A stretch of 64,000 bases of DNA from Psychromonas antarctica (GTDB taxonomy: Bacteria > Pseudomonadota > Gammaproteobacteria > Enterobacterales > Psychromonadaceae): the NCBI RefSeq assembly GCF_022267535.1, contig NZ_JAHNZV010000001.1, positions 1-64,000 of the forward strand, given 5' to 3'. Below the pieces are notes generated by a model that was given only the letters and a program-made list of their open reading frames with translations, had not been told where the DNA came from and did not search any database. Position numbers and translations under genes: made by a program. This document shows, piece by piece, positions 12,166 to 29,845 of this stretch. How positions within the stretch are numbered: the first letter of the stretch is position 1; the number at the start of each line of letters is the position of its first letter.

Positions 12166-13869
12166 CTAAAATAAGCAATAACGTTGTGCTAACGGTAGTT
12201 CAGCCGCTGGTTCACAGGTTAATAGTTCGCCATTGGCGCGTACTTCATAAGTCTGAGCATCCACTTCAATTTTGGGTTGCCAGTTATTGTGGATCATATC
12301 TTTTTTACCAATATCACGGGTATTTTTACAAACGCCGATCATACGCGTCATGCCGATTTGTTCAGGTACTTTTTTATCAATGGCAACTTGCGGTAAAAAG
12401 GTCATGGATGTTTTTGCTGCTGCTAAACCAAAGGAGCCAAACATCGGACGATAATAAACCGGCTGCGGTGTTGGAATCGATGCATTTGCATCCCCCATGG
12501 GGGCGGCAGCGATAAAACCTGATTTTATGATCATCGCAGGTTTAATGCCAAAAAAAGCAGGTTTCCATAAGACTAGATCAGCAAGTTTGCCCACTTCAAT
12601 GGATCCGACTTCATGACTGATACCATGGCTGATAGCCGGATTGATGGTGTATTTGGCAATATAACGTTTTAATCTGAAGTTATCATTGCGCTCGGTATCG
12701 GGGGCTAATGGACCTCGCTGCTGTTTCATTTTATGAGCCGTTTGCCAAGTGCGGGTGATCATCTCTCCAACGCGGCCCATTGCCTGTGAGTCTGATGCGA
12801 TCATGCTGATTGCTCCTAGGTCATGGAGAATATCTTCAGCGGCAATACTTTCTTTACGAATACGCGAATCGGCAAAGGCAACATCTTCCGGAATTGAGGG
12901 ATCCAAATGGTGACAGACCATCAGCATATCTAGATGCTCATCGATGGTATTAACCGTATAGGGGCGGGTTGGATTAGTTGAAGAGGGTAGTACATTAGGC
13001 TCCCCACAAGCGCGGATAATATCGGGTGAATGACCGCCGCCAGCACCTTCAGTGTGGTAGGTATGAATCGTACGTCCTTTAAATGCGCCCATGGTATCTT
13101 CCACAAAACCCGATTCATTCAAGGTGTCCGTATGAATTGCTACTTGTACATCGTAACGCTCGGCAACTGATAAACAGTTATCTATCGCCGCGGGTGTTGT
13201 GCCCCAATCTTCATGCAGTTTTAAGCCACAAACACCGGCTTCAATTTGTTCTTCTAAAGCTAACGGTAAACTGGTGTTACCTTTACCTAAAAAGCCAAAG
13301 TTCATGGCAAAATCGTTGGTCGCCTGAATCATCTTATGAATATGCCAAGGCCCGGGAGTACAAGTGGTCGCTTTAGTACCTGTTGCCGGTCCTGTGCCGC
13401 CGCCTATCATGGTGGTAACGCCGGACATTAGTGCTTCTTCGATTTGCTGAGGACAGATAAAATGGATATGCGCATCAATGCCGCCAGCGGTTAAAATTTG
13501 TCCTTCACCAGCGATTATTTCTGTGCCGGGGCCAATTTCGATATCGATATTATCCTGAATATCGGGATTGCCCGCTTTACCAATCACCGCTATTCGGCCA
13601 TCTTTAATCCCCAAATCGGCTTTAACGATGCCCCAGTGATCTAAAATAAGGGCATTGGTGATCACCGTATCAACCGTTGTATAGCAAGAGCCTTGGCTCT
13701 GTCCCATGCCATCACGGATCACTTTCCCACCGCCAAATTTAACTTCTTCCCCATATTGAGTGTGATCTTTTTCAACTTCTAGCCATAAATCAGTGTCACC
13801 TAAACGAACCCGATCGCCAACGGTAGGACCAAACATATGTGCATAAGCATGTTTATCGATAGTTGCCAT
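12166..13869 (-). CDS. ureC: Urease alpha (catalytic) subunit
   Basis: The 567-residue length equals that of Klebsiella urease, and all catalytic residues are at the same numbers: nickel ligands His 134 and His 136, carbamylated Lys 217 (GLKLHEDWG), His 246, His 272, flap residues Cys 319 and His 320, and Asp 360. It hydrolyses urea to ammonia and carbamate in the cytoplasm as the UreABC complex. ureB ends 2 bp upstream. Nothing suggests loss of function. Confidence 0.99.
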
Positions 13870-13871
13870 AA

Positions 13872-14189
13872 TTATAAATCCCCTTGAATTTCTGCGCGAA
13901 AGCCAAATACGCGGCGCTTACCTCGGTAAGCGATTAAAGTTACTTCTCTTTGTTGTCCCGGTTCAAATCGCACCGCAGTACCTGATGTGATATCTAGGCG
14001 ATAGCCTTTACAGGCAGCGCGATCAAATTTTAAGGCGGGGTTGACCTCATAAAAATGGTAATGAGATCCAACTTGAATAGGGCGATCACCGGAATTGGCC
14101 ACGGTGATAGTAAATTGCGCGCAGCCAACATTTAATTCGCGCAGACCTGAATCTGTTTTTATTTCCCCAGGGATCATAACTTGCTCCAT
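13872..14189 (-). CDS. ureB: Urease beta subunit
   Basis: The 105-residue protein has the UreB opening MIPGEI (an alternative start at 14177), the [13 protein letters not shown] motif and the terminal [12 protein letters not shown] typical of the structural beta subunit. The start codon shares one base with the ureA stop (TAATG), indicating translational coupling. Confidence 0.98.
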
Positions 14190-14491
14190 TAAATTATAGG
14201 GTTATGGACAGTAACTAGTTTTGTGCCATCAACAAAGGTCGCTTCTACTTGTACTTCTGGAATCAGTTCAGCGATGCCGTCCATCACTTGATCGCGTGTT
14301 AGCAGCGTGCGCCCATAATCCATCATCTCGGCAACACTTTTACCGTCACGTGCCCCCTCCATAATTTCCATGGAAATATAAGCCATCGCTTCGGGATAAT
14401 TAAGTTTTACGCCGCGCTTTAGTCGCCGTTCAGCTAATAATGCAGCTGTAAAAATAAGTAGTTTGTCTTTTTCTCTAGGTAACAGATCCAT
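14189..14491 (-). CDS. ureA: Urease gamma subunit
   Basis: The 100-residue protein matches the standard gamma subunit, opening [23 protein letters not shown] and ending [16 protein letters not shown]. The separate ureA and ureB genes give the usual three-chain bacterial urease. It starts 12 bp after ureD. Confidence 0.98.
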
Positions 14492-14503
14492 AATATTCCC
14501 TTT

Positions 14504-15424
14504 TTAGGTGTGCCAAATTCTGGGTTGAATAGCCGTTTTGTTAATCAGTTGCGGCCGCAATAATTGCCATAATCTGATAAATAGCCGTTTGCATTGCTGT
14601 GCATGTTGCCCTAAATAACGGATAACCAATAAACCGTTGATCTCTGTAATACTGATTTTATCACTCGCTTCAGCTTGGCTTATCTGCTCGCGAAGCTGTT
14701 CAACTAATTTTTTGCGCATCGCAATGTCGGTTAACTGAGCGGGAGCATAGGCTAAAAATGTTGCAAAAACAGTGTTGCCAGCCAATCCGGCGGGACTGTT
14801 TAATAGCTGATTTTCTGGAGAGAGCGCGATGCGATCATGGTAAATAAGTTTGTTGTCACAAAATAGGCGGTTTAATTGGCTGTATTTACCCTGACTAAAG
14901 GGTTGTGCCGAATCGGGTAACCCAAGGCAGGTAATATCCCAGCCGAGATAAACCGTGCTACTGGTTAAGTGGATATCGACACTATTAAAGCCATCGGCAC
15001 CTTCGTAAACGATGGTTTCTTGTGGGAAATTTTCACATGTAGCCTGCGCGGCAAGATCAAATTGGGTAATTTGAGTCTGTTTAGAATCGCCAATGCTTAA
15101 ATCCTGACGGGCTCGATAAAAACGGCCTGCACCTGGGGTTGTAAATAAAAGATGGGCATTTTTTTTAACCATGACGCTAATGCGTAGTTCATCTCCAGAG
15201 ACAATCCCCGCGGGGGGATGCAGCAGGTATATATGGGCGCAATCCTTGCCTTCTGGATAAAAGGCTTTCTGAACTGATAACGGCCCTTTACGTTGAGTGC
15301 GGGTAAGTTGTGTACCGACAGGAGTATCACTAAACTCTAAGGATAAATTAGCCAACCAATGATTTTTCAGTGGTTTTATTCGCGTTTCTGGGTTTATCTT
15401 TGTCGTTAATATTGTATTTGTCAT
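14504..15424 (-). CDS. ureD: Urease accessory protein UreD
   Basis: UreD (UreH) is the scaffold linking apo-urease to UreF and UreG during nickel insertion. The 306-residue product has the family blocks LHPPAGIVSGDEL, FTTPGAGRFYRA and QETIVYEGA. It lies 4 bp after urtE, which joins the transporter and enzyme genes in one transcription unit. Confidence 0.95.
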   Translation of the reverse strand: MTNTILTTKINPETRIKPLKNHWLANLSLEFSDTPVGTQLTRTQRKGPLSVQKAFYPEGKDCAHIYLLHPPAGIVSGDELRISVMVKKNAHLLFTTPGAGRFYRARQDLSIGDSKQTQITQFDLAAQATCENFPQETIVYEGADGFNSVDIHLTSSTVYLGWDITCLGLPDSAQPFSQGKYSQLNRLFCDNKLIYHDRIALSPENQLLNSPAGLAGNTVFATFLAYAPAQLTDIAMRKKLVEQLREQISQAEASDKISITEINGLLVIRYLGQHAQQCKRLFIRLWQLLRPQLINKTAIQPRIWHT

Positions 15425-15428
15425 TTGC

Positions 15429-16124
15429 TTAGACCGCGAGATATTGGCTAATAAGTTGATCGCTTAATTCGTGCATCTCACCCGATGCGATTACTTGCCC
15501 TTTTTGCATTAGATGGAACTGTTCGCCAACCGCGCGGGCAAAGGGGAGTTTTTGCTCAACGAGTACAATGGTCATGCCCTGTTCTTTATTTAATTTGAGT
15601 AACACATCACGTATCAACTGCACAATATTGGGTTGGATCCCTTCATTGGGCTCATCTAAAATAAGGATATCAGGGTTAAGCACTAAGGCGCGAGCGATAG
15701 CAAGTTGTTGTTGTTGTCCGCCAGAAAGATCACCGCCAAGCCGATGTAGCATCTCCTTTAATACAGGGAAAAGATCATAAATATGCTCTGGAATTGTTTT
15801 ACTGCTTTGTCGTAAGCAGTTTAAACTGATTTTTAAATTTTCCTCAACGGTCAGTTGCGGGAAAATGTGACGACCCTGTGGTACATACCCAACACCAATT
15901 TCAGGGCGTTTTTCGACCGGACTTTTGCTCATATCTTGATCGTTAATGACTAAGCTGCCTGAACTGATGGGTAACAATCCCATAATGGTTTTTAGCAGCG
16001 TTGTTTTACCAACGCCGTTACGGCCCATAATACAAGTTCGCGATCCCTTTTTTATATTAAGTGAAAGATCCCATAAGATCTGTGTGCCACCATATTTTTG
16101 ATCAACTGATTTCAATTCAATCAT
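15429..16124 (-). CDS. urtE: Urea ABC transporter ATPase UrtE
   Basis: This 231-residue LivF-type ATPase has Walker A GRNGVGKTT (34-42), signature LSGGQQQQLAIARAL and Walker B LILDEP. With UrtD it energises the UrtBC permease. The start overlaps the urtD stop by 4 bp (ATGA). The assignment as urea rather than branched-chain amino-acid transport rests on its place between urtD and ureD. Confidence 0.95.
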   Translation of the reverse strand: MIELKSVDQKYGGTQILWDLSLNIKKGSRTCIMGRNGVGKTTLLKTIMGLLPISSGSLVINDQDMSKSPVEKRPEIGVGYVPQGRHIFPQLTVEENLKISLNCLRQSSKTIPEHIYDLFPVLKEMLHRLGGDLSGGQQQQLAIARALVLNPDILILDEPNEGIQPNIVQLIRDVLLKLNKEQGMTIVLVEQKLPFARAVGEQFHLMQKGQVIASGEMHELSDQLISQYLAV

Positions 16125-16927
16125 AATTCAGCTTGCTCCTCACCCAAATAAACTTCTCGGACAGCTCTATTTTCTTGGATTTCATCCATGCTGCCTTCTG
16201 CTAAAACCGATCCCTCATGCAATACAGTGACCTTGCGCGCAATTGAACGCACAAAAGCCATATCATGTTCAACGACCACCACGGAGTGTTTGCCTGCTAA
16301 TGATGTTAATAGTTCAGCGGTACGTTCCGTCTCTTGTGCTGTCATACCGGCAACGGGTTCATCAACCAACAGTAAGCGTGGTTCCGCAGCCAGTAGCATA
16401 CCTATTTCTAACCATTGTTTTTGTCCATGAGAAAGACGCCCAGCCGGATAGTTTCGTTCTGCAATTAACCCGATAGTATAAAGTACCTCTTCTATTTTAT
16501 CTTTTTGTGCCCCGCTTAATTTATGAAACAGCGTGCTATAAATTCCTTTATCACCTGATAGGCTAAGTTCAATATTCTCGAAGACGCTAAGCGCTTCAAA
16601 CACCGTGGGTTTTTGAAATTTACGGCCAATTCCGGCACGGGCTATTTCGGATTCGTTAAGTGTTAAAAGATCAATCTGTTGTCCAAAATTCACTTTGCCC
16701 TTATCGGGCCGTGTTTTACCTGTGATCACATCCATTAGGGTGGTTTTACCTGCGCCATTAGCGCCAATCAGGCAACGTAATTCGCCATCTTTAATATAGA
16801 GATTGAGATCGTTTAATGCTTTAAAACCGTCAAAGCTGACGCTCACACCTTCAACATATAAGATCATGCCATGTTTAGTATTTAAGTCTTGAGAGCTTAG
16901 TAGCGCGCCTTTGCTATCTACTATCAT
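16121..16927 (-). CDS. urtD: Urea ABC transporter ATPase UrtD
   Basis: The 268-residue LivG-type ATPase has Walker A GANGAGKTT, the UrtD-like signature LSHGQKQWLEIGMLL and Walker B LLLVDEP. It pairs with UrtE on the cytoplasmic face. The start shares one base with the urtC stop (TAATG). The extra 25 residues before MILYVEGVSVSF are common in this family. Confidence 0.95.
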   Translation of the reverse strand: MIVDSKGALLSSQDLNTKHGMILYVEGVSVSFDGFKALNDLNLYIKDGELRCLIGANGAGKTTLMDVITGKTRPDKGKVNFGQQIDLLTLNESEIARAGIGRKFQKPTVFEALSVFENIELSLSGDKGIYSTLFHKLSGAQKDKIEEVLYTIGLIAERNYPAGRLSHGQKQWLEIGMLLAAEPRLLLVDEPVAGMTAQETERTAELLTSLAGKHSVVVVEHDMAFVRSIARKVTVLHEGSVLAEGSMDEIQENRAVREVYLGEEQAEL

Positions 16928-18084
16928 TATTTAACCTCCACAGCGGCAGGCTTCTCTGCATTTGCAGTTGTCTCTGTTTGCCTAGGTGATATTTGATTAA
17001 GTAATTTATCGAGCAGGCCAGCCAAACCTTTAGGCAGCAATAGTGTGGATAAGACAAATAATCCGCCCAACGCAAATAACCAAGCTTCGGGCATAATGGC
17101 GGTAAAACGCGTTTTTGCATAGCTCACGACGACTGCACCAATAAGTGCGCCATAAAGAGTGCCACGCCCACCTACTGCGACCCAAATGACAATTTCAATG
17201 GAGTTAAGAGGGGAGAATTCACCGGGATTAATAATGCCTACTTGGGGTACATAGAGTGCACCAGCAAGACCGGCAAGCATTGCCGACACAACAAAAATCC
17301 ATACTTTAAAATGGGCTGGCTGGTAACCGACAAAGCGAACGCGGTCTTCAGCGTCGCGGATGGCGGTGATCACGCGGCCCATTTTGGAGTTCATAATAAA
17401 GTGACTGACTGCATAGCCCGCCGCCAGTGCTATGGCGGTGGCAACAAACAGTGCTAATTTGGTATCGGGTGATTGTAAGGAGTAAGCAAATATTTCTTTA
17501 AAATCGGTTAGGCCATTATTGCCGCCAAAGCCCATCTCATTTCGGAAGAAGGAGAGAAGCAGCGCATAGGTCATCGCTTGTGTCATTATCGATAAATAGA
17601 CACCGCTGACCCGTGAGCGGAAAGCTAAACTACCGAATAGATAGGCGAGCAATCCTGGGCCAACAAATACCATTACTATCATAAATAGCACGTTATTTGA
17701 GCCTGCCCAGTACCATGGCAGTTCCGTCCAGTTAAGAAAGACCATAAAATCAGGCAATTCAGGGTTTCCGTAGACCCCACGATCACCGATTTGACGCATT
17801 AGATACATACCCATCGCATAACCGCCGAGTGCAAAAAACGCACCATGGCCAAGGCTAAGAATGCCGCAATAGCCCCACACTAAGTCAACAGCTAATGCGA
17901 GCAAGGCATAACAGAGATATTTACCTAATAGGCTGACTGTGTAATCGCTGACATGGAGCAGGGTGCCTTCAGCAAAAAACAGGTTACAGACAGTGACATA
18001 AAGGGTTGAGGCAAATAAAATTGCGATCACCCAATGCAGGCTGCTGAGTTTTTTTAAAACCGGGTAGTTAAGTAAAGTATTCAT
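16927..18084 (-). CDS. urtC: Urea ABC transporter permease UrtC
   Basis: This 385-residue LivM-like inner-membrane permease has about ten hydrophobic segments, the LSLGHGAFFALGGYAMGMYL motif near residue 75, and the coupling-loop motif MGRVITAIRDAEDRVRFVGY near 235-255. It forms the channel with UrtB. The start is overlapped by the urtB stop, so the two are coupled. Confidence 0.95.
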   Translation of the reverse strand: MNTLLNYPVLKKLSSLHWVIAILFASTLYVTVCNLFFAEGTLLHVSDYTVSLLGKYLCYALLALAVDLVWGYCGILSLGHGAFFALGGYAMGMYLMRQIGDRGVYGNPELPDFMVFLNWTELPWYWAGSNNVLFMIVMVFVGPGLLAYLFGSLAFRSRVSGVYLSIMTQAMTYALLLSFFRNEMGFGGNNGLTDFKEIFAYSLQSPDTKLALFVATAIALAAGYAVSHFIMNSKMGRVITAIRDAEDRVRFVGYQPAHFKVWIFVVSAMLAGLAGALYVPQVGIINPGEFSPLNSIEIVIWVAVGGRGTLYGALIGAVVVSYAKTRFTAIMPEAWLFALGGLFVLSTLLLPKGLAGLLDKLLNQISPRQTETTANAEKPAAVEVK

Positions 18085-19724
18085 TATTCTGCTGCTCTCC
18101 CTTTTTGCGGAAATAATCCCTTAGGTCGTTTTTGAATAAACAGGATCAAGCCGACTAGAACAATAATATTGGCTAGAACGGGGCCCATTGAGGGTTCTAA
18201 GAATTTATTAAAGGTACCGAGTGTCATTGCCGCGACCAACGTGCCCCATAAGTTGCCTACGCCACCAAATACCACTACCAGGAAGGAGTCGATAATATAA
18301 GCCTGTCCTAAGTTAGGGCCAACATTGGTTAATTGACTTAAGGCTACACCAGCAATACCTGCAATACCGGAGCCTAAACCGAAGGTTATCGCATCGACCC
18401 ATGAGCTTTTGATGCTTAAGGCGCGGGCCATATCGCGGTTTTGTGAAACGGCGCGAACGTGTAGGCCCAGTGAGGATTTTTTTAAAATCATTAATAGTGA
18501 GAAAAACACCATCAGGGCAAATAAAATAATATATAAACGGTTATAGGTTAATGAAAAAATCGGGTTTATGTCCAGTGATCCACTCATCCACTGAGGCGCC
18601 TCAACTTGACGATTTAAGGGAGAAAATATGGTACGAACGAGTTGTTGCAAAATAAGACTAATACCAAAAGTAGCTAATAGTGTTTCTAAAGGACGACCTT
18701 TTAGAAACCGTATCACGCCACGTTCAATTATTATTCCGACTAAGCCAGAGACAACAAAAGCTGCTGGAATAGCCATTAATAATGAATATTCAATTAGGGT
18801 CGGGAAGGTTTGCTGAATGACATAAGTCGTATAGGCTCCGAGCATCATCATTTCGCCGTGTGCCATATTGATAACACCCATTACGCCGAAAGTAATTGCA
18901 AGTCCAATGGCTGATAATAGTAATACCGAACCTAAACTTAAACCAAAAAAGAGGTGATCAGCTATTTGATAGAGATCGCCTTGCTGTTCAATTTTATCGA
19001 TAGCATGGCTTAATGCTCGTGTTAGTTCGCTCTTATCTGATAAGGCGGTTGAGTTGTCTAACGCTTTCACTAGTGCGTTTTTAACTGCAGGCTCCAAACG
19101 CCCTGTTAATATGCTCACTGCCGCTAGTTTTTCAGCTTCGGTGCCGGCTTTTAACTGCTCAACAGCTAACACGACAGACATTAGTTCACGTATTTTACTT
19201 TGTGGTTCGTTATCGTGTAATAGGGTAACGCTTTTAATGCCGACTTTGTTGGGACTGTCTAATAGTTGTTTGACCGCCTCTAAGCGTATAGCGGGATCTT
19301 TTGCATTCAATTCCATATTGGACAACAGATCGCCTATTTGTCTACGAATTCTGTTATTAGTTCTAACTTTTTTAATGGCTGAACTCGTTACTGATGGCAG
19401 TGGCGCATTACTTAGTAAATCGGTTAAGTCATATTTTTTGTGTTGGGTTCGTTGTGCATGTACCAGTTGTTTATTAGCTTTTAAGTAGTACAGTTCGCCG
19501 GCTTGTAACGTTTCTAAAATGGCCGGTACTTGTGGTGCTGAGGTGGCTGCTATTTTTTTAATTAAAGGCGCCATCTTATTTAATTTTGTGTTTGGTAATT
19601 GTTTGAGTAGGCTGGCTAGCGTGGTTTCAGCTTGTTGCTCATTACCTGCCGTTGCAAGATGGTCATCAGCTGCAACATGCCACGACATTAAGCAGAAAAC
19701 CAATAGAGAAAAAAGTCGCAACAT
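18084..19724 (-). CDS. urtB: Urea ABC transporter permease UrtB
   Basis: The 546-residue protein has a signal peptide and a roughly 230-residue non-membrane region before the LivH-like permease domain. That long N-terminal extension distinguishes UrtB from LivH and is normal for the urea family. The permease part shows GVINMAHGEMMMLGAY near 285 and the coupling segment VRAVSQNRDMARALSI near 430. The extension has HEAT-like helix pairs (AIRLEAVKQLLDS) and should lie in the periplasm. Confidence 0.95.
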   Translation of the reverse strand: MLRLFSLLVFCLMSWHVAADDHLATAGNEQQAETTLASLLKQLPNTKLNKMAPLIKKIAATSAPQVPAILETLQAGELYYLKANKQLVHAQRTQHKKYDLTDLLSNAPLPSVTSSAIKKVRTNNRIRRQIGDLLSNMELNAKDPAIRLEAVKQLLDSPNKVGIKSVTLLHDNEPQSKIRELMSVVLAVEQLKAGTEAEKLAAVSILTGRLEPAVKNALVKALDNSTALSDKSELTRALSHAIDKIEQQGDLYQIADHLFFGLSLGSVLLLSAIGLAITFGVMGVINMAHGEMMMLGAYTTYVIQQTFPTLIEYSLLMAIPAAFVVSGLVGIIIERGVIRFLKGRPLETLLATFGISLILQQLVRTIFSPLNRQVEAPQWMSGSLDINPIFSLTYNRLYIILFALMVFFSLLMILKKSSLGLHVRAVSQNRDMARALSIKSSWVDAITFGLGSGIAGIAGVALSQLTNVGPNLGQAYIIDSFLVVVFGGVGNLWGTLVAAMTLGTFNKFLEPSMGPVLANIIVLVGLILFIQKRPKGLFPQKGRAAE

Positions 19725-19810: not shown

Positions 19811-20392
19811 TTAAACGGCAAGGTAAAGACCGCCAAGTGCAATGGCTCCGCCTGCAAAACGGCTGAATTTGTGTAATGCTATTTTTTGAAAGAATTGTCC
19901 AAAGGCGATACCTGTGCTGTGGAGTAATACTGTGGCAAGTACAAATCCAATCGTATAAGTCATCGCGGCAGCCTCAATTGGCATTTCAGCGCCGTGTGCT
20001 GCACCGTGGAAAATTGCAAAAATACCGACCAGCAACGCACTATAGGTAACGGGTAATTTGTATGCGCTTGCGATTAAAGCACCGAGCACCAAGACAGAAG
20101 CTAATATACCGACCTCGATAAAAGGAATCTGCACCCCTGAAAAACCGATTAGACCGCCGATTACCATCAAAATAACAAAGCTGCTAGGCACTGCCCATAA
20201 CGCTTTTCCACCGAGTTGCACGGCCCAAAGTCCAACAGCTAGCATGGCGAGTAGGTGATCCATGCCACTTATGGGATGGTTTAGTCCATGCATAAAGCTG
20301 GTTGGTTCAGCAACACCGGTATGTGCCATTGCGGCTGTTGGGAGTAGCAGCAATAATGCAGCTGTCTTTAAATATATTTTTTTACTCATCAA
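19811..20392 (-). CDS. HupE/UreJ-family probable nickel transporter
   Basis: The 193-residue protein has a cleavable signal (AMA-H), then His-rich HTGVAEPTSFMHGLNHPISGMDHLLAMLAVGLWA, the defining HupE/UreJ motif, and about six membrane segments. Characterised family members are nickel permeases or facilitators found with urease or hydrogenase genes. Its place between urtA and urtB, in a cluster that otherwise has no nickel importer, supports nickel uptake for urease. Cobalt cannot be excluded. Confidence 0.9.
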   Translation of the reverse strand: MMSKKIYLKTAALLLLLPTAAMAHTGVAEPTSFMHGLNHPISGMDHLLAMLAVGLWAVQLGGKALWAVPSSFVILMVIGGLIGFSGVQIPFIEVGILASVLVLGALIASAYKLPVTYSALLVGIFAIFHGAAHGAEMPIEAAAMTYTIGFVLATVLLHSTGIAFGQFFQKIALHKFSRFAGGAIALGGLYLAV

Positions 20393-20451: not shown

Positions 20452-21729
20452 TTATTTACCTGAACATTTAGCTGTTTTGATATTAAAGTTGCCACAGCTA
20501 ACCGGAGCCGTCCAATCTGAGATAAGGTCTTTCGAGCTTGGTAGATAGTTAGACCAAGCATCACCAATCACCGTGTCGGGTGTCGACCAAACTACTTCAA
20601 ACTGACCGTCCGCTTGAATTTCACCGATAAAGACAGGTTTAGATAAATGATGGTTGCTGTTCATAACGGCAATTCCACCTGTTAAGTTAGGTATTGCTAT
20701 GCCAATCATCGCTTGTTCTACTGCATCAACATCTGTAGTACCCGCTTTCTCAACTGCTTTTACCCACATTTTGAAACCAATGTAGGTCGCTTCCATAGGA
20801 TCATTTGTGACACGTTTGTCATCACCAATATATTTTTTCCAGTTCGCGATAAATTCTTCATTTTCTTCTGTATCAATGCTTTGAAAGTAGTTCCAAGCAG
20901 CCATATGTCCGACTAATGGTGTTGTATCAAAACCAGATAGTTCTTCTTCACCTACAGAAAACGCGATAACTGGGATATCTTCAGCAGAAACCCCTTGATT
21001 GCCGAGCTCTTTGTAGAAAGGAATATTTGCATCACCATTAATGGTTGAAACGACCGCTGTTTTTTTGCCTGTAGAACCAAATTTCTTCACATCAGCAACA
21101 ATGTTTTGCCAATCAGAATGGCCAAATGGAGTGTAGTTCACCATAATATCTTCAGGTTTCACGCCTTTAGATAATAGATAAGCTTCTAGAATTTTATTGG
21201 TTGTACGTGGATAGACATAATCTGTACCTAATAATACCCAACGTTTCGCACCGATATCATTCATTAGGTAATCAACCGCGGGGATAGCTTGCTGATTTGG
21301 CGCGGCACCAGTGTAAAATATATTGCGCGATGATTCTTCACCTTCATATTGAACAGGGTAAAACATTAAGCCGTCCAATTCTTCAAGCACGGGTAAAACT
21401 GATTTACGTGAAACTGAAGTCCAGCTTCCGAAAATAACATCAACTTTATCTTTGGCTAGTAATTCACGTCCTTTTTCAGCAAAAAGTGGCCAGTTTGATG
21501 CAGGATCAACAACCACCGCTTCGATTTTTTTACCTAATAAGCCACCTTTGGCGTTTTGATCCGCTATCATCATTAGTACGGTGTCTTTTAGCGTCGTTTC
21601 ACTGATTGCCATGGTGCCTGAGAGTGAATGTAAAACACCTACTTTGATGTTTTCTGCGGCAAAAGCAAAATTGGATATCATCGTGCTTGCAACAATCGAA
21701 CTTGCAACTATCAGTTTTTTAAATTTCAT
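20452..21729 (-). CDS. urtA: Urea ABC transporter substrate-binding protein UrtA
   Basis: The 425-residue protein has a signal peptide ending FAFA-AEN and then IKVGVLHSLSGTMAISETTLKD, the standard UrtA opening. Further family blocks are VVDPASNWPLFAEK, GSWTSVSRKSVLPV, LMFYPVQYEGEE and MEATYIGFKMW. It captures urea in the periplasm for UrtBCDE. It is the first gene of the urea module, with a terminator hairpin after it. Confidence 0.97.
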   Translation of the reverse strand: MKFKKLIVASSIVASTMISNFAFAAENIKVGVLHSLSGTMAISETTLKDTVLMMIADQNAKGGLLGKKIEAVVVDPASNWPLFAEKGRELLAKDKVDVIFGSWTSVSRKSVLPVLEELDGLMFYPVQYEGEESSRNIFYTGAAPNQQAIPAVDYLMNDIGAKRWVLLGTDYVYPRTTNKILEAYLLSKGVKPEDIMVNYTPFGHSDWQNIVADVKKFGSTGKKTAVVSTINGDANIPFYKELGNQGVSAEDIPVIAFSVGEEELSGFDTTPLVGHMAAWNYFQSIDTEENEEFIANWKKYIGDDKRVTNDPMEATYIGFKMWVKAVEKAGTTDVDAVEQAMIGIAIPNLTGGIAVMNSNHHLSKPVFIGEIQADGQFEVVWSTPDTVIGDAWSNYLPSSKDLISDWTAPVSCGNFNIKTAKCSGK

Positions 21730-21974
21730 TATGAGTTTCCTTTTCTCTATTAATGGTTCTCGAGCCTTGCTCTGCGGGGTAAAGCTTAATCTAACCTTAT
21801 TTCAAGTGAAGCTAGTATCTCTTAATCAATGCAAGCATTAAATGCGTAAAAGCGCGCAATCAAGTACGCAAATATGCGCATATAATTACGTGCTTTATCA
21901 GTGTAAAATAAATAAATATTTGCCCGTAATTGAATGAAATTTCACTAATAACTCCATTAAACAAGTCGCATCTT
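21730..21974. promoter_or_regulatory. Divergent control region between urtA and the permease-kinase gene
   Basis: This 245-bp gap must hold the promoters for the minus-strand urea module and the plus-strand sensor gene. It contains several related words with GCG, around 21841-21895 (TGCGTAAAAGCGCGCAA, GTACGCAAATATGCGCAT), that could be regulator sites, but no clean operator palindrome or sigma-54 promoter was found by eye. Confidence 0.4.
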
Positions 21975-24900
21975 ATGATCTCTAATCAGAAAATAATTAA
22001 AGCACGTAGAACCTATAATAAGCTTGTGGCTAACGAGATGATGGAAGATTTCGCTCTGCGTTTTACCGCAAAACGGGCGAGAAAGTGGTCCTTAAACCGT
22101 ATTTCGGTAACCGCATTAGGGACTATTTCCTTTTTAGTATTAGAAGCGATTGGTGGGGCTATCACCCTTAATTATGGCTTTGAAAATTCGGCATGGGCCA
22201 TTTTAGCGGTTACTTTTATTATTTTTTTCACGGGTTTACCGATCAGTTATTACGCTGCAAAATATGGCGTGGATATAGACTTACTTAGCCGTGGTGCAGG
22301 ATTTGGTTATATTGGTTCGACCATCGCTTCGCTTATCTATGCTTCTTTTACCTTTATCTTTTTTGCTCTTGAAGCCTCTATCATGTCGATGGCGCTACAG
22401 ATCCTGTTTGATTTACCTCTTTCGCTCGGCTATATCATAAGTGCTTTACTGGTGGTGCCATTAGTAACGCACGGCATTACCTATATAAGTCGGTTTCAGG
22501 TCTGGAGCCAACCTTTGTGGATTGCACTACAATTACTGCCGCTATTTTTTGTTTTTAGTCACGCAGATAGCCAATTAAGTGGCTGGCTAAGCTTTACTGG
22601 CGCCGCGGCAGAGGAGGGGGCTTCATTTAACCTATTGCTATTTGGTGCGGCCTCCGCTGTATTGCTTTCTTTAGTGGCGCAAATTGGTGAGCAAGTTGAT
22701 TTTTTACGTTTTTTACCTGAAAAACCTCAGCAGGGGGCGTTGCGTTGGTGGATTGCATTAATCGCGGGCGGCCCGGGTTGGATTATTTTTGGTGCACTAA
22801 AACTTTTTTTAGGCTCTTTTTTAGCCTATTTTGCATTGCAGCAAGGGATTAGCAGTGATTTTGCGGGTGATCCAGCACATATGTATCAGCTTGCTTATGG
22901 CTATGTATTTGAAAATAAACAAATTGCACTTACCGTTGCTTGCGTATTTGTGGTTATCTCACAACTGAAAATTAATGTAGCGAATGCTTATGCAGGTTCC
23001 TTGGCTTGGTCAAACTTTTTTTCTCGCGTAACCCAAAATCATCCTGGGCGAGTTGTGTGGATGCTATTTAATGTTGCCATTGCTTTATTGCTAATGGAAT
23101 TAGGTATTTATCAAACGATTGCCAGTATGTTATCGGTTTATTCGGTGCTGGTACTGGCTTGGTTAAGTTCTGTTGTTGCTGATCTTATTATTAATAAACC
23201 GCTTGGTTTCAGTCCTAAGCATATCGAATTTAAACGCTCACACTTATATGATATTAACCCGGTCGGTGTTGGTTCAATGTTGATCGCTTCTTTTGCTGGG
23301 TTGACTGCGCATCTGGGGTTCTATGGCGAAACAGCAAGAGCGCTGGCTTCATTTGTTGCCTGTTTTTTGCCTTTTATAACCGCGCCATTAATCGCTTGGT
23401 TAACTAAAGGAAAGTTCTATTTAGTAGAGGCTGATAAAAGTGAGATTAACGTAATAACGCGCTGTCACATTTGTGAAAATGACTTTGATCCTGAAGACAT
23501 GACTTTTTGTCCAGCCTACGGAAAAGCGATCTGCTCATTATGTTGTAGTTTGGATGTGCGCTGCGGAGATCAATGCCGTCCTCATGCAACGCTTTCGCAG
23601 CAATCACATGACTTTTTCTCTCGTTTTTTAAGTACCAAGCTGCTGCGTAAAATGACGAATCCTCTAAGCCAGTTTATTGCTCTGACCTGTGCATTGAGTT
23701 TTATTGGCGCGTCCATTTTGTATTTAATCCATCTGCAAGTTCCGCTTAATGATCCTGTTGTTAAACAGCTGTTTGCGAGTACTCTCGTGAAAATATTCTT
23801 TCTTTTACTGATTACGATAGGGGTGGTGAGCTGGCTCTTTATTTTAGCGCGAAGCGGTAATCAACGGGCGTTAAAAGAGTTAAGATCACAAACGAACGCA
23901 CTGGCTAAAGAGATATCGGCTCATGAGAAAACCGCCGATGCGTTGCAAACCGCAAAAGAGGTTGCAGAAGCCGCCAATGAAGCTAAAAGCCGTTACTTGG
24001 CAGGGTTAAGTCATGAATTGCGCACACCGCTCAATGTACTACTCGGTTATGCACAGTTGCTCAGTCGAGATCAGGCGTTACCCATAAAGCAGCGTGAAAC
24101 GATAGCGATTGTTAAACGTAATGGCGAACATTTAGCGGATCTGATTGAGGGCCTATTAGAAATTTCAAAAATTGAGGCTGGCCGAGTTAATCTGCAGCGA
24201 GATGAATTTAATTTAAAAGCGATTTTGCAGCAACTGGTGGATATGTTTCAGATGCAGGCCAGCAAAAAAGGGTTGAAGTTTCATTATATTACCAGCCCTA
24301 ATCTTCCCGATTATGTAGCTACAGATAAGCAACGCTTTCGCCAAATTTTAATTAATTTAATTTCTAATGCGATTAAATATACGCAGCAGGGAGAGATCAC
24401 GTTTAAAGTTGCATATCGCAGTGAAGTGGCTCATTTTAGTATTATTGATAGCGGTGTTGGTATTTCCAAAAGCGACCAAGAACTTATTTTCAAACCTTTT
24501 GAACAGATCCGCTCGACACATAGCCAAGCTATTTCAGGGACCGGATTGGGATTAACTATTTCGCGTTCGTTGGCTGAATTAATGGGAGGCGAAATAAGTG
24601 TAACTAGCACATTAGGGCAAGGTTCAACTTTTAATTTTCGGCTTATGTTATTTAAATTGCATAAAGACCCTAAAGAGCCAGAATTTACTCAATTACATGC
24701 TATTGGCTATAGCGGGAAAAAACAAACCGTATTAGTCGTTGATGATGATAGCAATCAACGCGATCTTATCGATGAGTTGTTAACGCCTATTGGCTTTGAA
24801 GTATTACAGGCCGAAAGCGCGAAGACAGGTTTCACGCTTTTGGATACACGTGATATTGATCTTATTTTATTAGATGTGCGTATGCCAGAAATGGATGGTT

Positions 24901-25340
24901 GGACAATGGTTAAACTGTTGCGGGAAGCACATTATGGTATGCCAGTACTGATGGTGTCGGCCAATGCCCGTGATGCAGAATATAATTTGCAAGCAGAAGG
25001 CTACCATAACGGTTATATTGCAAAACCCGTTAATTTAGATGCTTTGTTGGGGAAAATTGCGCAGTTATTGGATCTGCAGTGGCATTATAAAAACACCGTA
25101 AAAGTAGTTGCACCAACTCGTCAGGAGCAAGCTAGACCTTTGGCAACAATGGTGCAATATCAAGCGCTAATCGCTTTAGCTGAAATTGGTTATCTTTCTG
25201 GTTTTAAAGATAAATTTGCCGAAATAGAAACACAATACCGTTATCCAGAAGAGGTTGAAGCGCAAATCAAAAACTATGTTGAAGTGTGTAATTTCCCGAA
25301 AATTATTGAATATTTAAGTGAGTTAAATCATGACGCATGA
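21975..25340 (+). CDS. NCS1-type permease fused to hybrid histidine kinase
   Basis: Starting from ATG 21975 (a TTG 15 codons earlier is possible; neither has a strong ribosome site), the protein is about 1121 residues. Residues about 35-490 form a multi-pass membrane domain resembling cytosine/purine (NCS1) permeases (EAIGGAITLNYGF, LLSRGAGFGYIGS). Next comes a Cys-rich segment from about 495 to 535 with CxxC pairs and CSLCC, a probable metal site. Two further membrane segments precede the kinase: phospho-acceptor His 680 (SHELRTPLN), N-box NLISNAIKY, G-boxes DSGVGIS and GTGLGLT. A receiver domain follows with phospho-acceptor Asp 967. It is divergent from urtA and overlaps the next regulator gene by 11 bp. 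Sensing of urea or another nitrogen compound is inferred from position only. Confidence 0.9.
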   Translation: MISNQKIIKARRTYNKLVANEMMEDFALRFTAKRARKWSLNRISVTALGTISFLVLEAIGGAITLNYGFENSAWAILAVTFIIFFTGLPISYYAAKYGVDIDLLSRGAGFGYIGSTIASLIYASFTFIFFALEASIMSMALQILFDLPLSLGYIISALLVVPLVTHGITYISRFQVWSQPLWIALQLLPLFFVFSHADSQLSGWLSFTGAAAEEGASFNLLLFGAASAVLLSLVAQIGEQVDFLRFLPEKPQQGALRWWIALIAGGPGWIIFGALKLFLGSFLAYFALQQGISSDFAGDPAHMYQLAYGYVFENKQIALTVACVFVVISQLKINVANAYAGSLAWSNFFSRVTQNHPGRVVWMLFNVAIALLLMELGIYQTIASMLSVYSVLVLAWLSSVVADLIINKPLGFSPKHIEFKRSHLYDINPVGVGSMLIASFAGLTAHLGFYGETARALASFVACFLPFITAPLIAWLTKGKFYLVEADKSEINVITRCHICENDFDPEDMTFCPAYGKAICSLCCSLDVRCGDQCRPHATLSQQSHDFFSRFLSTKLLRKMTNPLSQFIALTCALSFIGASILYLIHLQVPLNDPVVKQLFASTLVKIFFLLLITIGVVSWLFILARSGNQRALKELRSQTNALAKEISAHEKTADALQTAKEVAEAANEAKSRYLAGLSHELRTPLNVLLGYAQLLSRDQALPIKQRETIAIVKRNGEHLADLIEGLLEISKIEAGRVNLQRDEFNLKAILQQLVDMFQMQASKKGLKFHYITSPNLPDYVATDKQRFRQILINLISNAIKYTQQGEITFKVAYRSEVAHFSIIDSGVGISKSDQELIFKPFEQIRSTHSQAISGTGLGLTISRSLAELMGGEISVTSTLGQGSTFNFRLMLFKLHKDPKEPEFTQLHAIGYSGKKQTVLVVDDDSNQRDLIDELLTPIGFEVLQAESAKTGFTLLDTRDIDLILLDVRMPEMDGWTMVKLLREAHYGMPVLMVSANARDAEYNLQAEGYHNGYIAKPVNLDALLGKIAQLLDLQWHYKNTVKVVAPTRQEQARPLATMVQYQALIALAEIGYLSGFKDKFAEIETQYRYPEEVEAQIKNYVEVCNFPKIIEYLSELNHDA

Positions 25341-26217
25341 AAATCGTGATGTAGTGTTAGTAGTTGATGATTCACCAGAATCATTGGGTATGCTTAATGT
25401 TGCGCTAAATAGTCAGGGATATACTGCGTTAGTTGCGCTCAGTGGTATGCAAGCGTTAGCCATTGCTGAAAAAGTCCCTCCGGATGTTGTGTTATTGGAT
25501 GCGATGATGCCGGAAATGGATGGTTTTGAAACCTGTCGAAAGTTGAAGCTGATACTCCCTAATACACCCATTATTTTTATGACGGGATTAACTGATGTTG
25601 AAGATATTGTTAAAGGCTTCGATGCAGGGGGTGTCGATTATGTGACTAAGCCTATTTCACCCGATGAAGTGATTGTGCGTATTAAACGGCATATTGAAAC
25701 GGCTAAATTAGCGCTAAGTGCGCAAGATGCGCTTGATCATGCAGGCAAAAATATGTTTTGTGTGAGTGACTTGGGCCGTTTGTCTTGGGCTACGCCCTAT
25801 GTACATGCCTTAATTGATCAATGCTCAAAAGGGGATGCAAGTCCTTGGGCAAGCATGGCTGGATTAATCGCCATCTGGCTAAAAACAGATACTACTGAGA
25901 ATTTAAAAATAGATTGTTTTTCAGAGTCGATAGAGGTGTTTTACGAAGACAAGCAAGAAAATATGCATTTGCTGCGTATTGTGCAGAAAGTGCAGCAAAA
26001 AAATCCGCAAGATCTGAAGGATAATCTGCCCATAACAAAACGCGAATCAGAAGTTTTATATTGGGTCTCTTACGGTAAAACAAGTTGGGAAATTTCACTC
26101 ATTCTAGCGATGAGTCCACGAACGGTGAATAAACATCTAGAGCAAATTTATAGGAAATTGGGGGTTGATAACCGCACCTCAGCAGCTGCTATCTCAATTC
26201 GTATATTGGAAGCTTAA
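25330..26217 (+). CDS. Response regulator, receiver plus LuxR-type DNA-binding domain
   Basis: The 295-residue product has a receiver at residues 8-125 with phospho-acceptor Asp 57 (LLDAMMPEMDG) and Lys 107 (TKP). A linker of about 110 residues of unknown fold follows, then a LuxR/FixJ helix-turn-helix at about 237-290 (TKRESEVLYWVSYGKTSWEI, SPRTVNKHLEQIYRKLGV). The start codon overlaps the kinase gene end, so the two form an operon and should be partners in a phosphorelay. The adjacent divergent urea module is the most likely target. The long middle linker is larger than in ordinary NarL-type regulators. Confidence 0.92.
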   Translation: MTHENRDVVLVVDDSPESLGMLNVALNSQGYTALVALSGMQALAIAEKVPPDVVLLDAMMPEMDGFETCRKLKLILPNTPIIFMTGLTDVEDIVKGFDAGGVDYVTKPISPDEVIVRIKRHIETAKLALSAQDALDHAGKNMFCVSDLGRLSWATPYVHALIDQCSKGDASPWASMAGLIAIWLKTDTTENLKIDCFSESIEVFYEDKQENMHLLRIVQKVQQKNPQDLKDNLPITKRESEVLYWVSYGKTSWEISLILAMSPRTVNKHLEQIYRKLGVDNRTSAAAISIRILEA

Positions 26218-26580: not shown

Positions 26581-26815
26581 CGTGTTACTTTTTCTCAACA
26601 GCAAGAAAATAGGGTAATGATAGTTTTGTTCGTGACACTATGCTGGCGCATAACTCTCAGTGCCGTTCCGAACGTTTTTTTATTCTTGACTGCTCAATTC
26701 CTTTTTAACGCACCGGCTTGGACAGCACATCCCTGTGCTGAGCCAAGCCTAATGAAATCATCCATGATTTCCTTTGCTAAAGTAATTTCTCAGACAAGAA
26801 AACGTAAACGGAAGG
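26558..26815 (+). repeat. Left copy of a structured inverted repeat flanking the phosphatase gene
   Basis: This block matches, in reverse complement, the block at 29533-29845. Shared words include TTCTCAACAGCAAGAAAA, GACACTATGCTGGCGCATAA, TGCCGTTCCGA and CCTTTGCTAAAG. Inside are hairpins GGCTTGG..CCAAGCC (26715-26749) and AAATCAT-cc-ATGATTT (26755-26770). It encodes no plausible protein. Confidence 0.75.
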
Positions 26816-27196
26816 TAAGACGCTAGCCGAATAGGTTTGGATGTCCCCCGAATTCGATCTTCTACCGATTTATATCGACGTTCTGGCTGCTTTTTCTAAA
26901 AGGTTTGGGTGCTCATTTCCTCTTCTTGCTATTAACTTCTTTGTCATCGCATCTTCATATTTTTGTCATGTCTGTATTGTAGAGTTTAACAATCAATATA
27001 TTAGTTGTTTATTGATATTAACTTTACTTTTTACAGTCCGTAAATTTACTGATGGAATATCTTTTATGTCATTAATGGGGCGATTATTTACTATGTTTTT
27101 ACTCTTTATTCTCCGAAATAAAAACTAACTAAACTAACTTTTTTACCTATTTAAATTATGAAACTTATTCAGTAAATCAATATATAAGGAAATAAA
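26816..27196. other. Gap before the alkaline phosphatase gene
   Basis: A hydrophobic 95-codon frame at 26841-27128 has no ribosome site and no family resemblance and is judged spurious. The last 70 bp are very AT-rich and should contain the phosphatase promoter. ATAAGGAAATAAA just before 27197 supplies the ribosome site. Confidence 0.4.
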
Positions 27197-29443
27197 ATGC
27201 AAATTAGGAATGTTATTAAAGTGTTATCGAGCGTACTTCTTGTTTCGGCAGTGAGTGGCTGCAATAACGACAGTGAGCTTATTTATGTACCGACACCAAT
27301 TACTCCGTCAATTGCGGAGCATATCGATTTAGGTCCATTTAAATGTACAGATGCAGAATTAGCAGAAGATGCTGCTAAAGATTGTCGTTTGTACATTAAA
27401 GGTTCAATGAATAGTTGGTCATCTCGTCCTGAAGCGCAATTGCATTATCAAGGTGATGGAGAATACATTGCCTTGTTTAGTATGAAACCAGGTGATTACT
27501 CATTTAAGATATCTGATCCAAATTGGAGTGCTGAACGCGATTTGGCAATTGGCCCAGATGCTAATGCTGAAGTGGTATTTGATGCAGCGATGGAGCTGCA
27601 ACGTAAATACGATGATTTTTCTAACCAGAATATGAATATTACAGTCGCTAATGATGAAGACCAAGTGTATCGTTTTACCTTAGATTCTTCAGAGGGTATT
27701 AATAATCCAACCTTAAAAATTCAAAACATCACAGCATCCGATGCTGATAATCTGACTAAATCCATGTATTTAGTCGGTACGTTTAATGATTGGACTGCTT
27801 CGGAAAGTGACGTTTTTTCTTATACTGGTGCTGGTAATTATCAAGTACAAGTGACCTTTGAAAAAGCGGGGACAGTCAGCTTTAACGTACACCAAGGCAT
27901 CACTGATCCACTTGTTTATGGCTCTTTAGATAATAAACCAATTACTTTAACTGAAGGTGTATCATCACTGACAACTTACCCTGGTGGTAAAATGTCTGCT
28001 CAGATAGAAGCGGGCACATATGTATTTTCTTTATCGGCACTCGGTGACGGGCAGTTAGCGATCCCACTCTCTATTGCCAAAGTAAAAGCAGTTGCAGGTC
28101 ACGATACGATTACCGCTATAAATGTAGCCACTAACTTGACAGCTGACGGGAGTCGCTTTGCGAGTTCTTTCGATTGGGCTACTACAGGTGAGATGGACGT
28201 GATTTTGAGTGATGATAATACTCAAATGCCAGTGACTAAACGGCAATTAGCCAGTGCAGAGAGCTTAGGTCGATATACCGTGACCCTGACTACCAACCAA
28301 GGTCTTGCTTCCGAGTCTAGCGCTAGCCATGATGTGGATGTCATTGAAATTGAAAAAGCAAAAAACATTATAATGATGATTGGCGACGGCATGGGGTATG
28401 GGCAAATTGCAGTCACTAGGGCGTATAAAGGAGAGGCGCTATTTCTTGAATCAGGTAAACATCGTGGTGAAATTAAAACTGCGAATGCTGATACATTAGG
28501 CTACGAAGATCTACCTAATGTTGGTGGTAACTACTACACGGATTCAGCTTCTGCAGGTACGGCAATGGCGACTGGACGTAAGGTTCTTACTGGTACTATT
28601 TCTCAGGCATACCCAGGTAATGCATCTGATTTGAAAACTATTTTGGAATATGCACAAAGCCTAGGTAAATCGGTAGGTATTGTCGCAACGTCACATTGTG
28701 TGCACGCAACGCCAGCTAGCTTTGCGGCGCATGGTCCAACCAGAAATGATTTTGCTGCACTATCTAAAAGTATGTATGGCGTGGTGAAACCTAACGTAAC
28801 ACTATGTGGTAGCAAGCAAGTGGACGGAGTGGATGTGATTAGCGCTGAAGCAACTAAAGTGGGTTACACTGTGGTTAAAACCAAAACGGATTTAATCTCT
28901 GCGGTAGCCGCTTTACCTGCGAGTGATGACGGTACTGGTATCTACTTTGCAGGTATTTTTGGTGAAGACGAAATTCCTTTTGTGTTACCGCTAGGTGAGC
29001 AGAAAAGTTATGAAATGCAAGATATCCCGCAGCTTAATGAAATGACTGATGCTGCAATCGAGATTTTATCGAAAAATCCTAATGGTTTTGTTCTGATGGT
29101 AGAAGGTTCGCAAATCGACTTCGCTGGGCATAATAATGATGAAGAACGCATGATTCATGAAACTCTTGCCTTTGATAAAACGGTTGAAGCAGTTGCTCTT
29201 TGGGCTGAAAATAGCGGAGAGACAATGGTTATCGCTACTGCTGATCATGAAACCGGGGGGCTAGAGCTTCAAAAATCCAACGGGGTAGGTAAGGTACCTG
29301 AAGTGACTTGGTTATGGGGAAGCCATACCAATGTCGATGTTCCAATTGCTTCGTGGGGTATTAACTCGCATGCTTTTGTCGGGCGTACAGTAGAAAATAC
29401 GGCCATTTACAATGTAATGCGTGGCGCCTTAGATGCTCAATAA
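27197..29443 (+). CDS. Alkaline phosphatase lipoprotein with N-terminal carbohydrate-binding-like modules
   Basis: The 748-residue protein starts with a lipoprotein signal (Cys 22 in SAVSGC). Residues about 64-135 and 187-250 each contain a glycogen/starch-binding-like motif (LYIKGSMNSW.., MYLVGTFNDWTA..), resembling CBM48/CBM20-type beta sandwiches. A further beta domain extends to about 385. The alkaline phosphatase domain covers about 388-748: metal site Asp 397 (MIGDGMG), catalytic Ser 450 in YYTDSASAGTAMATG, EGSQIDFAGHNND and TADHETGGLEL. It should release phosphate from organic phosphates at the outer membrane or periplasm. It is a lone gene between inverted repeats. The modular N-terminus is longer than in PhoA; what it binds is not known. 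Confidence 0.9.
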   Translation: MQIRNVIKVLSSVLLVSAVSGCNNDSELIYVPTPITPSIAEHIDLGPFKCTDAELAEDAAKDCRLYIKGSMNSWSSRPEAQLHYQGDGEYIALFSMKPGDYSFKISDPNWSAERDLAIGPDANAEVVFDAAMELQRKYDDFSNQNMNITVANDEDQVYRFTLDSSEGINNPTLKIQNITASDADNLTKSMYLVGTFNDWTASESDVFSYTGAGNYQVQVTFEKAGTVSFNVHQGITDPLVYGSLDNKPITLTEGVSSLTTYPGGKMSAQIEAGTYVFSLSALGDGQLAIPLSIAKVKAVAGHDTITAINVATNLTADGSRFASSFDWATTGEMDVILSDDNTQMPVTKRQLASAESLGRYTVTLTTNQGLASESSASHDVDVIEIEKAKNIIMMIGDGMGYGQIAVTRAYKGEALFLESGKHRGEIKTANADTLGYEDLPNVGGNYYTDSASAGTAMATGRKVLTGTISQAYPGNASDLKTILEYAQSLGKSVGIVATSHCVHATPASFAAHGPTRNDFAALSKSMYGVVKPNVTLCGSKQVDGVDVISAEATKVGYTVVKTKTDLISAVAALPASDDGTGIYFAGIFGEDEIPFVLPLGEQKSYEMQDIPQLNEMTDAAIEILSKNPNGFVLMVEGSQIDFAGHNNDEERMIHETLAFDKTVEAVALWAENSGETMVIATADHETGGLELQKSNGVGKVPEVTWLWGSHTNVDVPIASWGINSHAFVGRTVENTAIYNVMRGALDAQ

Positions 29444-29532: not shown

Positions 29533-29845
29533 CTACGGAAATTTCCGTACGTTTTTCTGGTGCTGAACAAGCGCTTTAGCAAAGGGAAAACATGGATGTT
29601 TTCTCTAACCTCAGCCAGTACAGGGGCGTAATGTCTGAGGTGGTATGTTAAAACTGCTTGGGCAGTACAAGAATAAAAAACGTCTCGGAACGGCATTGTG
29701 AGTTATGCGCCAGCATAGTGTCACGAACAAAACTCTCTTAACCCTATTTTTTCTTGCTGTTGAGAAGCAGGACTCCCTCAAACTGCGAAACTGCGTTTCA
29801 GTTTCTCATCGTCTACACACCGTCAAAGGCGGAAGACCAACAACA
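29533..29845 (-). repeat. Right copy of the structured inverted repeat
   Basis: In reverse orientation it matches 26558-26815. The hairpins are kept but their sequences differ: AAAACAT-gg-ATGTTTT at 29587-29602 and CCTCAG..CTGAGG at 29609-29640 replace the left-copy stems, with both arms changed together. This copy also carries an extra palindromic insert (GAAACGCAGTTTC) not present in the left copy. Confidence 0.75.

Follow-up and report, generated by a model that had tools for sequence, protein, structure and literature searches.

Kinases fused to a transporter domain are already known, the nearest experimental precedents for the system described here being CrbS/CrbR and CbrA, with SLC5 transporters, and Ks-Amt5, with an Amt transporter. 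In CrbS/CrbR (MxtR/ErdR), an SLC5-STAC hybrid kinase acts with a LuxR-type regulator in the use of small nutrients (PMC5715377, accessible text). Here, we describe a comparable arrangement in a 64,000-nucleotide stretch of Psychromonas antarctica (contig NZ_JAHNZV010000001.1, positions 1 to 64,000; hereafter, the window), where a sensor of 1121 residues (21975..25340, + strand, ATG 21975) joins a permease, a cysteine module, a histidine kinase, and a receiver, and is followed by a response regulator (25330..26217, + strand). This protein is probably a transceptor, a sensor kinase that derives from a transporter and responds to urea or short amides, which, with its dedicated LuxR-type regulator, would activate the importer and the hydrolase of its own pathway. 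It differs from these precedents in the NCS1 transporter family, the cysteine module, and the predicted urea/formamide targets.

As in CrbS/CrbR, a transporter is fused to a hybrid kinase, the partner belongs to the LuxR family, and an imperfect inverted repeat serves as the target, predicted in our case (PMC5715377, accessible text). However, the permease here is of the NCS1 family, the cysteine module and extra membrane helices stand in place of STAC/PAS, the regulator carries a PAS-like middle, and the predicted targets are urea/formamide genes. CbrA, which combines histidine transport with a kinase, is also a LeuT-fold transporter fused to a kinase, and its K196 lies in the region of the Na2 site (PMC13022988, in the part available), K332 of the sensor being aligned with Ser312 of Mhp1. 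Nonetheless, the CbrA transporter is of the SSS/SLC5 family, whereas that of the sensor is NCS1. The partner of CbrA, CbrB, is an NtrC-type regulator, unlike the LuxR-type protein found here. In Ks-Amt5, likewise, a former transporter acts as the receptor for a nitrogen compound and controls the kinase fused to it (PMC5764959, accessible part), but it has the Amt fold and its loss of transport was shown experimentally. Finally, Mhp1 and CodB share with the sensor permease a common fold (Z 26-34) and a distant profile similarity, although the sensor permease is fused, is only 14-16% identical to them, and has an invariant lysine where the aligned Na2 serine would be.

With regard to the pathway, the locus resembles fmdCABDEF of Methylophilus, where a formamidase is encoded with binding-protein-dependent amide/urea uptake and is induced by formamide and urea (PMC10781810). 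That review names a putative positive regulator; in its main text, the terms "sensor," "histidine kinase," and "two-component" are absent. Also, urtABCDE genes beside fmdA have been suggested to import formamide (PMC13209695, accessible part), and a genome paper from 2026 reports a hybrid kinase and a LuxR regulator with a second urtABCDE set in Ectopseudomonas, adjoining an fmdA locus tag, the permease being unnamed in the text available (PMC13296017). A literature search, with most subscription journals outside its reach, found no paper on an NCS1-fused kinase, and the accessible portions of PMC6368324, PMC8399564, PMC7918813, and PMC8467165 hold nothing on a permease-kinase family. The induction by formamide and urea is thus described in the main text of PMC10781810 without a sensor, and the permease-kinase is a candidate receptor for it, for which the regulator, the DNA site, and the target genes can all be predicted. 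In a phylum-wide draw of 398 genomes, the cysteine module occurs in 52 genomes and 57 places, 56 of them besides the window, and a permease profile whose span lies outside the cysteine segment recovered the same 57 places plus one.

The first-pass annotation of the window had described one protein joining these four parts, an overlapping receiver-LuxR regulator with a long middle region, and a divergent orientation of the pair relative to urtA and a urea module. This description stands, the first part on Pfam, AlphaFold, hhalign, and the cysteine alignment, the second on an overlap of 11 bases and a middle of ~115 residues, and the third on UrtA-E models above cut-off and ure genes recognized by Pfam. 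The sensor open reading frame (ORF) spans 21930-25340 (+), and its likeliest start, from which residues are numbered, is the ATG at 21975, found in the same context as the start in a close relative (L002). The permease domain (residues ~20-485, 22032..23429, +) is followed by the cysteine module (23463..23576, +), HisKA (23982..24182, +), HATPase_c (24324..24647, +), and Response_reg (24729..25058, +), the last three being Pfam matches. In an alignment of 79 fusions (the window plus 78 of 80 close-relative loci, L013 and L046 being excluded for interrupted ORFs), the phospho-acceptor His680, the HATPase N-box, and the receiver Asp967 and lysine are each kept in all sequences, and one member of the receiver acidic pair is kept in 78, which identifies a hybrid histidine kinase. 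No histidine phosphotransfer domain is detected in the sensor by Pfam (E ≤ 1). Variants with the permease and cysteine module on a kinase that has no receiver, adjoined by a separate receiver-kinase and with a formamidase nearby, are seen in L166 (7849-11683, -) and L167 (7701-11662, -), the latter also adjoining an OmpR-type regulator.

The AlphaFold model of the permease region has a mean pLDDT of 80.6. In structural searches, it matches CodB with Z 33.8 (3.5 Å across 398 residues) and Mhp1 with Z 26.0-30.2, the best value for the next APC/LeuT-fold family being 25.3. A profile of 48 fusions aligns by hhalign to five PF02133 proteins with a probability of 94.5 (E 8.3e-8, 389 columns), and with 95.4 to NCS1 proteins when kinase-free (stand-alone) relatives are added to the fusions. 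Two of these relatives, L169 (31.8 bits) and L177 (36.4 bits), pass the PF02133 cut-off of 23.5, with L168 below it. The fold match, the profile match, and these two relatives together indicate that the modeled permease domain is NCS1-type by fold and remote descent. PF02133 itself is absent from the Pfam matches of the window's sensor (E ≤ 1); among the 25 of 26 families listed for 48 fusions, neither PF02133, nor SSF (SLC5), nor STAC is seen, the cysteine module and membrane helices occupying the segment of the last, and NCS1 structures outrank SSS ones. A PDB sequence search with the permease profile returned a single chance match. Lys332 in TM8 and Glu57 in TM1 are invariant in the 79 fusions. 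Lys332 is aligned, at only ~16% identity, opposite Mhp1 Ser312, which we take to be a sodium ligand (with Ala309 and Thr313) of the Na2 site.

Behind the permease, eight cysteines (C497, C500, C512, C520, C523, C524, C530, and C534) follow the spacing C-x2-C-x11-C-x7-C-x2-C-C-x5-C-x3-C, and all are invariant in the 79 aligned fusions, the 80 close-relative loci having been partly selected by a peptide inside this segment. Eight urease-linked stand-alone permeases (L169, L014, L200-L204, and L208, one of them a partial ORF) all keep the first, second, fourth, and fifth cysteines and have lost the third, sixth, seventh, and eighth; because these proteins are kin, the loss may be a single event. 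This pattern of loss suggests two interleaved four-cysteine sites; in the model, a hairpin and a helix succeed each other in the first site as they would in a treble-clef finger, which it may resemble. The first-pass annotation had proposed that the cysteines could add redox, zinc, or nickel input, the last of which would fit a pathway with a nickel enzyme. We rejected the nickel link as unsupported because most relatives accompany a formamidase, and the formamidase-linked fusions keep all eight cysteines, whereas the stand-alones beside urease lost four. Six of these eight stand-alones adjoin a NicO-type nickel transporter. In viral contigs, 22 pattern matches to the module were found and none was confirmed.

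The regulator comprises REC (residues 9-118), a PAS-like middle (~140-220), and a GerE/LuxR DNA-binding domain (235-287), the segment between REC and GerE (~119-234, ~115 residues) being unusual. REC and GerE are present in 48 of 48 regulators, which places them in the LuxR/NarL type, and D13, D14, D57, T85, and K107 fall within invariant columns of these sequences. The AlphaFold model (pLDDT 93.5) shows the receiver, a middle with a PAS-type order of strands and helices, and GerE. Because receiver domains fill the lists of the structure-library searches made with the middle, the term PAS-like refers to the strand and helix order in the model alone. FlcA of Azospirillum was considered as a relative of the regulator and rejected, being a LuxR-family protein of 215 residues (PMC4264754, accessible part) that is listed as an orphan regulator (PMC4618731, accessible part).

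A survey of how often homologs neighbor urt/ure-type genes, proposed in the first-pass annotation, bore out a strong association in a phylum-wide draw and a weaker one in a class-wide draw. In the close relatives, a urtA-like gene lies on the opposite strand in 76 of the 80 fetched stretches (exceptions L014, L016, L044, and L054), and the regulator is just downstream on the sensor's strand in 77 (exceptions L011, L012, and L014). Moreover, in the phylum-wide draw, chosen without regard to urea context and with neighbors counted within a fetched stretch of at most 20 kb per locus, UrtA-like, formamidase, or urease genes accompany 54 of the 56 places: 35 have UrtA-like and formamidase genes, 6 UrtA-like and urease, 7 urease, 4 UrtA-like alone, and 2 formamidase alone. 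In the two exceptions (L149 and L161), the sensor is at a contig end. Formamidase is the commonest partner (37 regions), urease genes occur in 13, and the regulator is present in 54. A UrtA-family protein (E ≤ 1e-70) is encoded in 51 of the 52 genomes with the sensor versus 119 of the 346 without it (Fisher p 3e-20, with relatedness ignored). A class-wide draw of 369 genomes, where 18 including the window's match and 18 regions were examined from the remaining 17, is less clean, with urea/amide genes in 11 regions. The divergent order is kept across loci whose names place them in the alpha-, beta-, and gammaproteobacteria.

The ligand had been proposed to be urea or a purine/pyrimidine breakdown product. 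Since a formamidase and a UrtA-like importer are the commonest neighbors (35 of 56), urea and short amides would be the ligand class, and the purine part of the proposal is not maintained. Likewise, the idea that the relay controls urea uptake and urease is favored by the context and by a predicted promoter palindrome described below, its scope having to be widened from urea alone to urea/formamide. Automatic names fail to tell urea from formamide importers because TIGR03407, the urea UrtA model, also scores above cut-off for binding proteins beside formamidase (L040 and L112, phylum-wide draw). Plasmid records matching the permease segment number 524, including 342 from Klebsiella and 78 from Sinorhizobium. 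Among the 40 of these matches listed, the named ones are called "ATP-binding protein," "response regulator," or "Aerobic respiration control sensor protein ArcB," none of which is informative. In one K. pneumoniae IncFIB plasmid (L209, NZ_OX359176.1 61860-83620), the sensor is accompanied by a formamidase, urt-like ABC genes, and a regulator ORF.

Upstream of the sensors, an 18-base palindrome, MTRCGYMAWWTKRCGYAK, was assembled from exact five-base dyads, the top ones being seen 37 and 36 times upstream of 141 sensors versus a maximum of 3 in five shuffled sets. The training set consisted of the upstream regions of the 141 fusions that score above 1200 bits once the duplicate loci L082-L111 are removed, along with L012, L161, L168, and L187, whose starts could not be located; under these rules, it does not include the divergent copies L166, L167, L183, L189, and L190. 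The weight matrix exceeds 12 bits in 117 of these 141 regions versus 0.35% of base-shuffled ones, the scored regions being the training regions. In the window, the predicted regulator-binding site GTACGCAAATATGCGCAT (21864..21881, no strand assigned, 15.1 bits) lies upstream of both genes, its center ~143 bp from the start of urtA and 102 bp from that of the sensor. A second, weaker palindrome (21842..21859, no strand assigned, 11.0 bits) lies on the urtA side at exactly 22 bp from the first, and second sites of at least 6 bits at exactly this distance occur in 12 of the 117 loci, the window included and the twelve being partly kin, with no other offset between 10 and 60 occurring more than once.

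Whole-locus scans are a fairer test of the palindrome than the scoring of training regions. The best site of the locus falls inside the 450-bp region upstream of the sensor in 100 of 131 loci (~3 expected). At a threshold of at least 17 bits, 144 loci (3.0 Mb) hold 145 sites, versus 3 in the reversed-sequence control: 101 precede a UrtA-like gene, 25 precede fmdA, 12 precede a sensor with neither, 1 precedes a displaced regulator, 1 precedes urease, and 5 are unassigned. None of the 25 fmdA sites falls within a training region, nor do 10 of the 101 UrtA sites. Moreover, where the sensor and the urtA-like gene are apart, the site remains with the latter (L018, L021, L118, L121, L124, and L130). 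Among records not used for training, a K. pneumoniae IncFIB plasmid has a 24.7-bit site and a Sinorhizobium medicae megaplasmid a 23.5-bit site directly before urtA, and the same 23.5-bit site is found in the unannotated S. meliloti pSymB, at a distance of 1.7 kb upstream of the sensor. A scan of the genome to which the window belongs, allowing one mismatch at most, gave 48 strand matches versus 33 in the backwards control, so no clear further targets emerge and a genome-wide regulon is not favored.

Eleven full-length permeases of the family have no kinase, and all lie within urease or formamidase clusters. In L168 and L205-L207, the stand-alone gene precedes fmdA-fmdB, divergent from a sensor and regulator, with a 22-25-bit palindrome in front. 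In the urease clusters, it lies between ureG and the NicO-type gene (L169, L200-L203, and L208), after ureG (L204), or beyond a sensor gene facing ureDABC (L014); no site above 14.2 bits is found in these urease-linked loci except in L014, where one of 27.1 bits precedes a displaced regulator. Next to ureABC or fmdA, the stand-alones thus take the position that is usually that of an ABC importer, and UrtA-, UrtB-, and UrtC-like genes are undetected in the fetched regions, to which the search was confined within each genome. In a FastTree phylogeny with four stand-alones (L200-L208 not being in it, and long branches being flagged), they branch outside all fusions. Because the fetched regions around these kinase-free permeases hold urease or formamidase genes but no ABC importer, the sensor probably arose from a urea/formamide importer. 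To judge from the branching order and the gene positions, descent from a stand-alone, cysteine-tailed urea/formamide permease that would still act as an importer in some lineages is most likely. We give about even chances to a broader proposal, in which the cysteine-tailed permeases are unrecognized urea/formamide secondary transporters able to replace the Urt/Fmd ABC importer, the sensor is their kinase-fused duplicate, and a two-site metal module couples the two parts. If true, a single fold would provide the importer as well as the receptor within one divergent locus (L168 and L205-L207). The loci also form a natural series for the path from transporter to receptor, with the importer by itself, the importer and the sensor together in one locus, and the sensor beside an ABC importer. 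An amide setting is seen again in L177 (9949-14984, +), where the neighbors of a distant NCS1 permease encode an AmiR/ANTAR regulator, a Peripla_BP_5 protein, and a carbon-nitrogen hydrolase.

For the transceptor, we propose the following mechanism. Urea or a near-isosteric amide would bind to the NCS1 permease domain, and binding or the transport cycle would alter the packing of the permease on the cysteine module, a change relayed via the membrane helices to HisKA. Then, His680 would be phosphorylated and the phosphate passed to Asp57 in the regulator, a transfer that the receiver attached to the kinase (Asp967) would modulate, all three residues being invariant. The regulator would bind the conserved MTRCGYMAWWTKRCGYAK site between the sensor gene and urtA and activate urt(-ure) in the window, and in relatives it would activate the fmdDEF-like and fmdA operons, where the site is also conserved.

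Several observations speak against this interpretation. The Pseudomonas CrbS and CbrA SLC5 domains can be swapped, and activation is said to be independent of transport (PMC5715377, accessible text), so that ligand sensing need not reside in a permease fused to a kinase. The 147 fusions and the 11 stand-alones compared differ in ten columns, of which four (S52, F53, L56, and E57) belong to TM1, so the sensor may no longer transport. Seven of the 18 class-draw regions have no urea/amide genes (L179, a 5.7-kb contig; L181, whose contig ends ~1.4 kb upstream; L180, L183, L186, L189, and L190), and L183, L189, and L190 also have no adjoining LuxR regulator. As to the palindrome, in group f110, whose sensor faces ureA in six loci, three (L141, L143, and L158) have no site of at least 12 bits between the genes, the other three (L157, L159, and L162) having sites of 14-18 bits there, and L145, L164, and L165 have no such site either. 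The window's site of 15.1 bits is below the threshold of the whole-locus scan, and the coding sequence of its sensor contains a 17.4-bit match (23643-23660). A site precedes fmdA in only 25 of the 94 loci with an fmdA start in reach, fmdA elsewhere mostly trailing the ABC genes, and the shuffle fractions overstate independence because the sequences are related. Finally, in the comparison that gave the ten columns, from which L166, L167, L183, L189, L190, and L177 were omitted, no pocket substitution tells sensors linked to urease from those linked to formamidase in three of four clades, save two conservative columns; no convincing ligand-specific pocket residues were found, so the ligand could be one shared compound.

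Among the alternatives, it is possible, if less probable, that the permease is merely a membrane anchor or an importer and that the kinase senses cytosolic nitrogen or redox via the cysteine module or the PAS-like part of the regulator, driving the ABC operon. The interchangeable SLC5 domains would agree with this, as would the extra PAS-like domain predicted in the regulator and the conservation of the cysteine module, which is the highest among seven segments (0.81, as the mean share of the commonest residue). However, by the same measure, the permease equals HisKA (0.756 each) and exceeds HATPase (0.704) and the receiver (0.572), its Lys332 and Glu57 are kept throughout the 79 fusions, and it is found with the cysteine module in 57 of 57 places. 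We consider it unlikely that every member has formamide or some other short amide as its ligand, the urease-linked copies sensing the same compound, or urea weakly. Formamidase is indeed the commonest partner, and the fmd and ure labels switch at least six times on the tree with no matching pocket signature. Nonetheless, these labels cluster strongly (0 of 500 shuffles were as low for fmd or ure, near-copies contributing), copies of the window's type accompany a complete urease operon, and stand-alone permeases are found in urease clusters. That an ordinary hybrid kinase lies beside urea genes by chance is very improbable, for although two-component genes are common and some copies have no nearby urea/amide gene, the divergent order conserved across three proteobacterial classes, the common palindrome, and the co-occurrence contradict it.

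In the window, the sensor/regulator pair is divergent from urtA-hupE/ureJ-urtBCDE-ureDABC, all on the - strand. This set starts with urtA (20452..21729), encoding a UrtA-family substrate-binding protein (TIGR03407, 569.9 bits; cut-off 492.75), and continues with a HupE/UreJ family membrane protein gene (19811..20392; PF04955, 193.4 bits), which lies inside the urea-uptake operon and possibly encodes a nickel importer. Then follow urtB (18084-19724), urtC (16927-18084), urtD (16121-16927), and urtE (15429-16124), each an NCBIfam equivalog above cut-off. The urease genes are ureD (14504-15424; UreD), ureA (14189-14491; Urease_gamma), ureB (13872-14189; Urease_beta), and ureC (12166-13869; Urease_alpha/Amidohydro_1), all above their Pfam cut-offs, together with the Pfam matches ureE (11695-12147; UreE_N/UreE_C), ureF (11010-11786; UreF), and a UreG-like gene (10332-10952; cobW/HypB/UreG). 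A promoter scan of 21700-22000 found none. An Rfam 5_ureB_sRNA match (13434-13716, +, 113.4 bits) is antisense to ureC and may only mirror conserved urease sequence. Downstream of the regulator, two Rfam TwoAYGGAY matches on opposite strands (26657-26822, -, 61.0 bits; 29534-29699, +, 52.9 bits) flank an alkaline phosphatase ORF (27197-29443).

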